Origin: Desulfomicrobium sp.
Lineage (GTDB): Bacteria > Desulfobacterota > Desulfovibrionia > Desulfovibrionales > Desulfomicrobiaceae
NCBI GenBank assembly: GCA_024709365.1
Contig: JANJWV010000039.1
Coordinates: 1-50,718, forward strand
Length of the DNA stretch: 50,718 nt
Direction of reading: 5' to 3'
Under the pieces are notes generated by a model. The model had not been told where the DNA came from, did not search any database, and saw only the letters and a list, made by a program, of their open reading frames with translations. Below are positions 23,798 to 50,718 of this stretch, piece by piece. Made by a program: the position numbers and the translations under genes. Positions within the stretch are counted from its first letter, which is position 1, and each line of letters starts with the position of its first letter.

Positions 23798-24703
23798 ATG
23801 AAGATTCTGGCCTTTGGCGCGACGGGTTTCGTGGGGGCGCACCTCGTGCCCCATCTCGTGGAACGCGGCCATGAGGTGACCGTGGCGGCCCGCTCCGGAA
23901 AGGCGCGCTTCGCCCCGCCCGTGGTCGTGCTCAAGGCCGACCCCACCGCGCCGGGCCCGTGGCAGGAACTGGTCGCGGAGTACGACGCGGTGGTCAACCT
24001 GACCGGAGCCCCGGTCACGGTCCGCTGGAACGAGGCGGGCAAGCGGAGCATCCTCGAGTCAAGGGTGCTCAGTACCCGCAACATCGTGGACGCCTTGTCG
24101 CACACCGCGGGCAAGACCTTCCTCTGCGCCAACGCAGTGGGCTACTACGGCGACGGCGGGGACGCGGTGCTGACCGAGGACGCGCCGCGAGGGTCGGGCT
24201 TTCTGGCCGACGTGGCCGCGGCCTGGCAGGCCGAGGCCCTGCACGCCGAGAGCTTCGGGCACCGCGTGGTCATGCCGCGCATCGCCGTGGTCCTCGGCAA
24301 CGGCGGCGCCCTGGCCAAAATGCATCTGCCCTTCTCCCTGGGCCTGGGCGGCCGCCTCGGCAGCGGCAGGCAGTGGTTCCCCTGGATTCACGTCCTGGAC
24401 CTGGTCCGCGTCATGAGCTTCCTGCTGGAAACCCCGACGGCCAGGGGGGCCTTCAACGCCTGCTCGCCCGAAGCAGTGACCAACGCCGGCTTCACCGCGG
24501 CCCTGGCTCGCGCCCTGAAGCGCCCGGCCTTCCTGCACGTCCCTTCCTTTGCCCTGCGGCTGGTGCTGGGAGAGGCGGCGACCATCCTCCTTTCGGGGCA
24601 GCGCTGCGTCCCGGCGGCCCTGCAGGCCCTGGGCTTCTCCTTCGAGCTCCCGAACCTGGGCCGGGCCCTGGCGGACATCGTCCCCGCCCTGAAAAAGGCC
24701 TGA
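23798..24703 (+). CDS. TIGR01777-family NAD(P)-dependent epimerase (SDR39U1/YfcH-like)
   Basis: This encodes 301 residues. The ATG at 23798 has GGAGGGG upstream. The Rossmann motif is GATGFVGAHLVPHL, followed by VVNLTGAPVTVRWNEAGKR, the SDR active-site region with ANAVGYYGDGG (Tyr-x-x-x-x type) and VVMPRIAVVLGNGG. The C-terminal DUF1731 segment includes VPSFALRLVLGEAATILLSG, where LGE...LLSGQR is characteristic. The reaction is unknown for this family. It is the last gene before a strong terminator, 14 bases after nifU. Confidence 0.9.
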   Translation: MKILAFGATGFVGAHLVPHLVERGHEVTVAARSGKARFAPPVVVLKADPTAPGPWQELVAEYDAVVNLTGAPVTVRWNEAGKRSILESRVLSTRNIVDALSHTAGKTFLCANAVGYYGDGGDAVLTEDAPRGSGFLADVAAAWQAEALHAESFGHRVVMPRIAVVLGNGGALAKMHLPFSLGLGGRLGSGRQWFPWIHVLDLVRVMSFLLETPTARGAFNACSPEAVTNAGFTAALARALKRPAFLHVPSFALRLVLGEAATILLSGQRCVPAALQALGFSFELPNLGRALADIVPALKKA

Positions 24704-47352: not shown

Positions 47353-48579
47353 TTAGGATTCAAGATGTTCCGGGTGAAGCTCGTAGTATGCGCCCACAAG
47401 GTAGAGGGAGCCGCACACGAGGGTCTTCACCTCCCCCTGCAAGGCCGCTCCCAGGTCAGGCGCGACCCGCGCCCCGGGCCCGAGGAGCGCGGCCAAATCT
47501 TCGGGGTCGCAGGCCCGCTCCAGGGCGAGCTTCGGGACGACGATCTCGTCCGCGAGGCCCCGCAGCCTGGCGAGGATGGCCGGCTCCAGGGTCTTGTCGC
47601 GCATGGCCTGGAACACGAGGCGCTCGAAACGCTCCCCCGACCCTTCCAGGGCGTCGCACAGGGCGGCCAGACCCATGGGGTTGTGGGCGCCGTCCACGAG
47701 GATGTTGCCGTGACGGCGATATCGCCCGGAAAAACGCGTCCTGCCAAGGACTTGTGTACACAGACCCGCGTCAAATTGCCAGCCTCCGCTGCGCGCCAGG
47801 CGGCTCCAGGCCAGCAGGGCCAGGGCCGCGTTGCCGAGCTGGTACGGAGGGTGGCCGGGCAGCAGGTCCGGGGTCAAGAGGAAGGGCCCGGATTCCGTCG
47901 GGATGCGGAACCCGCCTTCGACGCGGCAATCGTCCAGACACAGGAAATCACGCCCCGCGCCCGCCGCACGGAAGATATCCATGACCCCAGGCTCCTGCTG
48001 ACCCGTCACTGCTGCGCAGCGCCCCAGGGCCCCGGCCTTGTCGCGGGCGATGTCGGCCAGGGCCGGCCCCAGGACATGCTCGTGGTCCATGCCCACCGGC
48101 GTCATGACGGCCAGATCGGCGTCCACGGCGCAGGTCGCGTCATGGGTGCCGCCGAGCCCGGCCTCCAGCACGGCCAGGTCGAGCCCTTCGAGGCCGAAAA
48201 TCCGCAGGGCCATGACCGTCAGCAGCTCGAAATAGGTCAGCCCCACATCCGCGCAGACGTCCATGACCGCATTGGCCTCCTGGAGCCAGCGTTCCTCGGG
48301 CAGCATGCGGCCCCGGACGCGGATGCGCTCGCGCACCCCGACCAGATGCGGGGAGATGTACAGCCCCGTAGACAACCCGTGCCCGCGCGCCAGGGCTTCC
48401 AGAAACCCGGACGTGGACCCCTTGCCGTTGGTCCCGACCACATGCGCGACCATCCGCCCGGGCCGCCCGAGGCCGAGCCGCCCGAGCGCCTCGTGCATGC
48501 GCGACAGCCCCAACTGCATGGAAAAAAGCCCCAGGCCGTCGAGATACTCCTCGAACCCGGCAAAAGAAACGAACTTCAT
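47353..48579 (-). CDS. folC: folylpolyglutamate synthase / dihydrofolate synthase
   Basis: This encodes 408 residues. The ATP-binding loop is VVGTNGKGSTSGFLEA, followed by GLSTGLYISPHLVGVRERI, LEAGLGGTHDATCAVD and VDGAHNPMGLAALCDAL. It adds glutamate to dihydropteroate and folates. It is the first gene of folC-selA-hisC-cmk. Its ribosome site (GCGAG) is weak. The tRNA-Arg fragment lies about 170 bases upstream on the opposite strand. Confidence 0.92.
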   Translation of the reverse strand: MKFVSFAGFEEYLDGLGLFSMQLGLSRMHEALGRLGLGRPGRMVAHVVGTNGKGSTSGFLEALARGHGLSTGLYISPHLVGVRERIRVRGRMLPEERWLQEANAVMDVCADVGLTYFELLTVMALRIFGLEGLDLAVLEAGLGGTHDATCAVDADLAVMTPVGMDHEHVLGPALADIARDKAGALGRCAAVTGQQEPGVMDIFRAAGAGRDFLCLDDCRVEGGFRIPTESGPFLLTPDLLPGHPPYQLGNAALALLAWSRLARSGGWQFDAGLCTQVLGRTRFSGRYRRHGNILVDGAHNPMGLAALCDALEGSGERFERLVFQAMRDKTLEPAILARLRGLADEIVVPKLALERACDPEDLAALLGPGARVAPDLGAALQGEVKTLVCGSLYLVGAYYELHPEHLES

Positions 48580-48751
48580 GACCGCTCGCTAGATCCAACA
48601 GTGAAAAACACGCTCCGACGGCCCGCAACCCGCCGGCAATCCCCACCCGGGCAGCTTTCATAAAAGGTTCCCCACCCGGCGGCAACTGAAATCCCGCCAG
48701 CCCCCGCTTGACTTTCAGAGCCGGAATCAATAGCCAGTTTTCCTCTCACGC

Positions 48752-48790
48752 GCGCCAGTAGCTCAGGCGGATAGAGCAATTGCCTTCTAA
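48752..48790 (+). pseudogene. 5' half of tRNA-Arg(UCU), cut after the anticodon loop
   Basis: The acceptor strand is GCGCCAG (48752-48758), then TA and the D arm GCTC...GAGC (48761-48777). The anticodon stem side is ATTGC, and the loop CTTCTAA gives anticodon UCU. The complementary 3' anticodon stem, T arm and acceptor strand do not follow; instead ACAAAATC starts unrelated AT-rich DNA. A -35-like TTGACT lies at 48708-48713 upstream. Because intact tRNA genes are needed, the complete gene is probably elsewhere, for example at the far end of the element. Confidence 0.82.
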
Positions 48791-49328
48791 ACAAAATCAA
48801 CCACTTATCTCACAATCCGCCAAGCCCGCATAACCATCTACAATTCCACCAAAATTCTCCTTGCCCTCCATTCTTGCGCCCTCTTAGAGTTGCTATTTTT
48901 TGGCAGCTTTTATCACGGTTTTTCACCCTTCACGGGAACAGAGACGGGAGTAGCTAGAGCAAAAGTTCAGGCTGCTTTACCTATTAGCACCACCTGCCGC
49001 CTTTCAAAACAGTCAATTATTTCAACACGCTAGATATTATTCTATAATATGCTGAAATTATTGACTATAACTTCACGACGCCAACCATTATCATCCTCCC
49101 CACCCCTTGAAACCATAGCTAAAAATACGACATCGTGTCACATTTATTGATTTCGTAACACAATGACTAACTCGAAAACATGCTTCCTCTCGTTGTTATC
49201 GAGAATACCCATTCACAGTGTCCAAAAAGTCTAGCGCAAAAAATGTCTGAGCAAAAAAGATACTTCCCCCGCCACGGGTTAGGGGGCCTTGGTCCCTGCC
49301 TCCCCCCCCCCCTGTGATGACGAGACCG
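48791..49328. other. AT-rich gene-free region at the start of the island
   Basis: This 538-base stretch has clearly lower GC than the backbone. No coding frame with a recognisable product or a good ribosome site is seen. It holds the near-palindrome at 49011-49066 and, at the far end, a C11 tract at 49302-49312. It may be the attachment and regulatory zone of an integrated element. Confidence 0.55.
49011..49066. repeat. AT-rich near-palindrome in the island
   Basis: The arms AGTCAATTATTTCAACA (49011-49027) and TGCTGAAATTATTGACT (49050-49066) match with two mismatches. Between them ATATTAT (49034-49040) and ATAATAT (49044-49050) are perfect complements around TCT. It could be a protein-binding site, a recombinase core or a decayed origin. 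Confidence 0.65.
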
Positions 49329-50384
49329 TTAGTGCGTTACTGATGAAGAGGTATCTCTCACGATGTCGCGCAGTTTATCTGGACTCAGAACGTCGCCCTT
49401 ACCCCTATGGATCATCCTGTGGCAGTTGGCGCACAGCGGAATAAGGTCGGTCGCAGGATTGACTTCAGCCTCCTCATCGGACTCACCCAAGGGCTTCAAG
49501 TGATGGACTTCGATGAATCCACGCCCTAGGTCGCCGTAGGTCTTCTCAAAGTCGAAGCCACATACCGCACACGTCGTCCCGTGAATCTCAATAGCCTTCT
49601 GCCTGTTGATCGCACTCCGCATCCGACGAAGATACTCAACCCTGACGGGCTTTCCCTCAACTTGTACCACGTATTCATCTGGGACGGGTTGCTCTATCAT
49701 CACACCTGCCCCATAAAATTCCACCTCGAAGAGAGAATCTGTAAGTTTACGGAAGAGCATGATGATCGCGCCCCTACCTTGCTCCTCGCCAGTCTTGAGC
49801 GTTGCCGTTTCGACAGGGAATGCTCGGGCTATATCTTCTGACAGCGCCTTGGGCCAGAATATCCGTACACGCTGGAACGGGTCGACGCTGACCCGCAAGC
49901 TTAGCTCTTTGTCTTGGTGGAGCACACGAAGCGACTTCGGCGGATTAGCATCGTCAATACCGAAGAACGGAAGCACCTGCTTTGGTACTCCTGTGCCGTG
50001 ATACAGGATGGCAGACTTATCAACGCGCTTGATGGCCTCAGTGTCACTTAGGATGGTCCAGGAGAAGACATCCTCCTTGTCGGGCATCTGGCGGAGATCA
50101 AGTCCGTGGTCATGTACGTATTTGAGGACATGATCCCTGAGCACCTTCTGATAGTTACCTCTGGGCTTGTAGCCCATAACGAACCTCAGCCCCTCCTCAT
50201 GCAAGACGGCGCTAATGTTCTGGTGCTTGAGTTCCACGGCCCCCTTTGAGCGGCCACTGAGTTTATCCATAAGGGCAGAACGATGGTCGCTTTTATTGTA
50301 GTCCTCGCCGCGCATCTCGCTAGCCAACATCGCGAAGTAATCCTCAACGGTGGCTCTAATCTCGTCTTCGCTCCAGTCACGCAT
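49329..50384 (-). CDS. HNH endonuclease with N-terminal DNA-modification-type domain
   Basis: This encodes 351 residues from the ATG at 50384, which has GGAG 5 bases upstream; a longer frame to 50480 is less likely. The N-terminal ~100 residues (WSEDEIRATVEDYFAML, HQNISAVLHEEGLRFVMGYK) match the region found before HNH domains in McrA-type or restriction-like proteins. The HNH domain (272-330) has CAVCG (Cys272/275), HHLKPLG with His294/295, and LCANCHRMIHR (Cys318/321, His326). It should cut DNA, perhaps modified DNA, but specificity is unknown. The lower GC and the tRNA edge suggest a defence or mobile island. Confidence 0.82.
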   Translation of the reverse strand: MRDWSEDEIRATVEDYFAMLASEMRGEDYNKSDHRSALMDKLSGRSKGAVELKHQNISAVLHEEGLRFVMGYKPRGNYQKVLRDHVLKYVHDHGLDLRQMPDKEDVFSWTILSDTEAIKRVDKSAILYHGTGVPKQVLPFFGIDDANPPKSLRVLHQDKELSLRVSVDPFQRVRIFWPKALSEDIARAFPVETATLKTGEEQGRGAIIMLFRKLTDSLFEVEFYGAGVMIEQPVPDEYVVQVEGKPVRVEYLRRMRSAINRQKAIEIHGTTCAVCGFDFEKTYGDLGRGFIEVHHLKPLGESDEEAEVNPATDLIPLCANCHRMIHRGKGDVLSPDKLRDIVRDTSSSVTH

Positions 50385-50571
50385 AACTACTCCGTTCACT
50401 TTGGAATGGTGGTATAAGTGCCTGGGCAGTACACTGTTGGATACGTATGACACAAGGGCTTTGTGTGATGAGAATAGCAACTTTCAGGAGTGAATAACCT
50501 ATGAACAGAAAGGATTCTTACCGTGACACTGGTTCAGGTGGAGGGTCTCCTCACCAATAGAAATCAACGAC

Positions 50572-50718
50572 TCAGCGAACAACCCAATGCTTGAAAATGT
50601 CTTTCTCGCCGATGAAGTATTCATTATTCTTGTAATCCGTCACTAAGGCTTCTATGAAGTTAAGTGGAAGAGGCTTGCGTGCGGTAATTTCGTCTCCTTG
50701 CGGAGTCGATTGTCGACA
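50572..50718 (-). CDS. C-terminal end of an unidentified protein, partial
   Basis: A minus-strand frame enters from beyond the window and ends in TGA at 50574-50572, giving 48 residues (for example LNFIEALVTDYKNNEYFIGE). The composition looks coding, but no family is recognised. It would be upstream of the HNH gene on the same strand, with about 190 bases between. It may belong to the same element. Confidence 0.4.
   Translation of the reverse strand, partial: CRQSTPQGDEITARKPLPLNFIEALVTDYKNNEYFIGEKDIFKHWVVR

Follow-up and report, generated by a model that had tools for sequence, protein, structure and literature searches.

The window analysed here is the whole of contig C116 (50,718 bp) of a Desulfomicrobium sp. 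assembly of 239 contigs, and its right end carries one half of a tRNA gene. The chromosomal side of the locus begins with a folC-type Mur ligase family gene (47353..48579, minus strand; Pfam Mur_ligase_C), which is the kept left neighbour of the tRNA locus. It is followed by a promoter read from the sequence (TTGACT, 17 bases, TAGCCA; 48708..48736, plus strand) and by the displaced 5' half, positions 1-39, of a tRNA-Arg(UCU) gene (48752..48790, plus strand). Past the junction at 48790 lie a conserved element arm (48791..48825, plus strand), a doublet of ACGGGA repeats (48932..48949, plus strand) and a cargo gene for an HNH nuclease (49329..50384, minus strand; Pfam HNH). The contig ends within the start of a transposase gene (50588..50718, minus strand), a remnant which we take to be IS256-type, with about 80% identity to short stretches in genomes G013, G002, G014 and G009 and an open reading frame in locus L074. 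ARAGORN reported no tRNA in the window, and a consensus promoter scan did not flag the promoter at 48708..48736.

The half gene (GCGCCAGTAGCTCAGGCGGATAGAGCAATTGCCTTCTAA) is identical at 39 of 39 bases to positions 1-39 of tRNA-Arg(UCU) in same-genus genomes, eleven of which have an intact gene with the identical 5' half or a variant of it differing by 1-2 bases. It breaks off where the anticodon loop ends on its 3' side, and the other 38 bases of the gene are missing after 48790. The window has a single copy of the 39-mer, where none is expected by chance, and the entire assembly likewise has one, with three mismatches allowed. The sequence-only reading had described a perfect half gene giving way abruptly to AT-richer DNA, and this description holds, with a G+C of 65-70% before the junction and 43-54% after it. 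It also suggested comparing the locus with relatives lacking the island. Across the genus the left flank of the tRNA locus is syntenic and the right flanks differ; in G013, the closest relative, the same left flank is joined to an intact tRNA-Arg(UCU) without the element. The left flank and promoter of G013 are near-identical to those of the window, with 43 of 45 bases of the stranded promoter region matching the DNA upstream of the intact gene.

A second genome, G007, came up in a DNA search of the genus; in it a half gene adjoining folC ends at the same base as that of the window, and there both ends of the island, with the integrase and the rebuilt tRNA, can be seen. Reading from folC, G007 has the native promoter, the 39-base half gene, a related arm, a KAP-family NTPase gene (its product matches PADLOC PDC-S20) and an HNH gene. 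These are followed by genes for a DUF2569 protein, a serine recombinase, a 503-residue protein, a small helix-turn-helix protein that is xis-like by size and position, and a tyrosine integrase. The integrase gene (int) is unbroken, and 158 bases separate its end from an intact tRNA-Arg(UCU), about 11.3 kb from the half gene; this tRNA, with int upstream, has a promoter that differs from the native one. The repeat common to the two ends runs from a few bases before the tRNA 5' half through TTCTAAGC. No close relatives of the G007 integrase were confirmed in public genomes, and phage records held only distant integrases, all less than 60% identical. The 503-residue protein (L088 4512-6023) is without a Pfam match, and its sole similarity is to phrog_4756, for which no function is assigned.

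On the element side of the junction in the window, the arm (AAATCAA-CACTTA ... CCGCCAAGC) is kept in the G007 attL, and its local alignment to that attL outscores 2000 of 2000 shuffles. The first 10 bases past the junction, ACAAAATCAA, equal the 10 bases past the intact tRNA in G013; beyond them the window differs from the native flank and matches the end of the G007 element, and this conserved element-end DNA reaches about 48825. The end at 48830 given in the sequence-only reading is thus arbitrary, with element-end DNA stopping slightly short of it and the probable arm repeat lying further on. That the half gene marks the border of an island with an HNH gene is supported: the HNH genes of the window and of G007 are homologous (about 82% DNA identity over 880 aligned bases), with equal order and orientation, and in G007 int and the intact tRNA lie beyond. 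The HNH protein of the window has a PDC-S36-like N-terminus (PADLOC, E=9.8e-35) and, like the KAP protein of G007, belongs to a candidate phage-defence family. The window's island matches the G007 element at the boundary and in the HNH gene only, and no further part of that element was found in this assembly, so the two elements are related but mosaic.

We consider it very probable that 48752-48790 is the displaced chromosomal 5' half of tRNA-Arg(UCU) at attL, left there by a tyrosine-integrase element that entered at the anticodon loop. In this scenario, the attP of the element would carry its own promoter together with a copy of the tRNA 5' half, and the integrase would recombine it with the chromosomal gene, presumably by a crossover within the anticodon loop. 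At attR, beside int, the element's 5'-half copy would be joined to the chromosomal 3' half, giving a functional tRNA with an element-borne promoter; at attL, the native promoter and 5' half would be stranded adjoining folC. The reversed, or 5'-fragment, class of insertion fits the arrangement, given that the native promoter and 5' half are stranded here and that the rebuilt copy is found in G007 only. The sequence-only reading had offered, as one of two options, a duplicated attachment-site end whose intact tRNA stands opposite. This is by far the better of the two and is seen directly in G007, although the other end is absent from this assembly. Its statement that the tRNA is not rebuilt applies to this border; at the far end the gene is probably rebuilt under the element-borne promoter, as seen in G007.

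The other option was a deletion. An in-place loss of the 3' half, leaving a dead tRNA gene with no tie to integration, would agree with the 10 bases past the junction that equal the native 3' flank of G013 and with the lack of an intact tRNA-Arg(UCU) in the assembly. However, past those 10 bases homology runs into the G007 element end rather than the native flank, and G007 has the same junction plus an intact tRNA elsewhere, which makes a deletion very unlikely. The junction at 48790 is genuine, because an independent same-genus genome, G007, has the identical junction. An assembly join at this point, which the sequence-only reading had raised, is not borne out: the assembly is fragmented and the composition changes abruptly, but both the junction and the arm recur in G007, and a chimera is hardly conceivable. 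Group I introns of bacterial tRNAs sit at the anticodon loop, which is also where the half gene breaks off, as might be expected of an intron or a split tRNA gene with its 3' half further on. Such an arrangement is nonetheless extremely improbable, given that there is no Rfam match in 48400-50718 and that the 3' half (GCAATCGGTCGGGGGTTCGAGTC) is absent from the whole assembly in a search allowing up to 3 mismatches.

A further alternative is that the half gene is a remnant attL, in which the far end, integrase and rebuilt tRNA included, was later lost or was disrupted by insertion sequences; the island would then be immobile and UCU decoding supplied otherwise. The transposase remnant at the contig end and the failure to find either an integrase of the element or an intact tRNA in the assembly would be in keeping with such a loss. 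On the other hand, absence from an assembly of 239 contigs is weak evidence, and loss of the gene would probably be harmful, given that AGA codons are used and there is no other UCU tRNA among the 51 tRNAs. We regard a remnant as unlikely, and an attL whose partner lies outside this contig as the better account.

The second 5' half, a close integrase and an element-type promoter were each searched for in this assembly and none was found; integrases elsewhere in it are only distant ones. The sequence-only reading had proposed looking beyond the window for an integrase and a second copy of the half gene joined to a complete tRNA; both are present in G007, and this genome's own assembly yielded neither. 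It had also taken the lack of a complete tRNA-Arg(UCU) anywhere in the genome as fatal to its interpretation. Formally this is the state of the assembly, yet the assembly is in pieces and the contig stops inside the island. The intact gene stands at the opposite border in G007, where the tyrosine integrase adjoins it, and contig C116 ends before the corresponding island end, where an integrase would be expected. Because AGA codons are in use (in five genes counted, one in a chromosomal gene that is presumably radical-SAM-type and three in the HNH gene), a working UCU tRNA is expected in this genome, and it was probably missed by the assembly.

The sole extra match in the assembly, at C59:24319-24373, comes from the 3' end of another gene, one resembling a tRNA or tmRNA, and it shows no pairing with the 5' half in the window. 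That contig ends in the 3' part of the gene (24319-24446; L178 1501-1628), which is not among the 51 tRNAs. Elsewhere in the same assembly, another integrase gene adjoins tRNA-Asp(GTC) near a contig end (C232 7094-8255; L089/L090, L018), probably in an ordinary island. The island DNA had no match among plasmids.

The orientation of the G007 element sets it apart from its integrase family. A tRNA lies no more than 600 bases downstream of int in 25 of 30 integrase loci of the order, and in 24 of these the 3' end of the tRNA faces int; G007, in which the 5' end faces int, is the sole reversed locus. The ordinary 3'-end islands resemble it in their tRNA targets (tRNA-Arg(UCU) itself in 2 of the 24), in their related integrases (29-38% identical) and in the repeat doublets, spaced 11-13 bp, beside int. 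The anticodon stem-loop is nearly symmetrical, and its 7-base loop with flanking inverted repeats resembles the standard core site (PMC8371274). Near-symmetry of this kind may provide a simple route for a flip of orientation.

The ACGGGA doublet of the window (two copies 12 bp apart) is the sole such pair in the 50.7 kb, and ACGGGA pairs with spacings of 12 and 13 bp are present at both G007 ends, attL and attR. Direct repeats of at least 7 bases with this 11-13 bp spacing occur in 22 of the 25 integrase-tRNA gaps compared with 3.7% of control segments taken from those loci, in a test devised once several of the loci had been seen to carry doublets and in which the gaps, including that of G007, are not 25 independent cases since some loci are near-identical. 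The 6-base repeat of the window falls one base below the 7-base cut-off used. The doublet is probably an arm-type binding site of the integrase.

The promoter of the rebuilt tRNA in G007 is closest to that of G001 (37 of 47 aligned bases; at most 30 of 48 in other members of the genus), and the stranded promoter of G007 is of the usual genus type, which indicates that the element brings its own promoter to the rebuilt tRNA. It is possible, though we put this forward tentatively, that such elements transfer between species the promoter for a tRNA gene which the host needs, and replace that promoter at each integration. Our guess is that the G007 element may have captured its promoter from a G001-like host. 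The converse, that the element-like promoter of G001 is the scar of a past integration, was rejected: inspection by eye revealed no further element sequence alongside it, and an element that excised precisely would give the native promoter back.

Zhao and Williams, in 2002, reportedly described elements whose recombination involves the 5' region of the target tRNA gene. The element in the window resembles them in integrating with the 5' rather than the 3' part of the tRNA, and is unlike them in host and in the element itself. A paper that cites their work states that recombination involves the 5' region considerably less often (PMC6563490). Of 3919 islands in Islander, 3760 have a 3' tDNA fragment and 159 a 5' fragment (PMC4383910). 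In the latter, as in G007, the displaced 5' fragment is upstream of the intact tRNA, with the island and its integrase between; the break at the anticodon is another likeness, whereas in this genome the fragment end alone is assembled. With the archaeal pTN3-like integrases, the integrase promoter drives expression of the rebuilt tRNA, an arrangement seldom met in bacteria (PMC8371274). Their attB is likewise the 5' half and their rebuilt tRNA is under an element-supplied promoter, but they are archaeal and their integrase gene is itself split on integration, whereas int in G007 is intact. The element in the window belongs to a known minority insertion class, that with 5' fragments, and the mechanism is not new.

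Other DNA at this locus concerns its 3' side. In G013, tRNA-Arg(UCU) is directly followed by prophage genes, including those for tape measure, capsid and a ClpP-like protease (L081 8262-15733). The first genes of a 47 kb predicted viral contig from IMG/VR (L160 1-1010) are folC and an intact tRNA-Arg(UCU), which would fit a prophage on the 3' side; the intact tRNA gene adjoining folC rules the contig out as the same element. The tRNA-Arg(UCU) locus seems to be used by elements from both sides in relatives.

What looked like an odd broken tRNA can be read as a precisely mapped island border. It adds one more bacterial case of reversed insertion, which is uncommon and would put a tRNA that the host needs under the promoter of a mobile element. 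The switch of orientation can be tested by comparison with an integrase family that inserts in the usual way in 24 of 25 loci. If the promoter was indeed captured from a G001-like host, expression of a host tRNA would be tied to a mobile element that bears defence genes.
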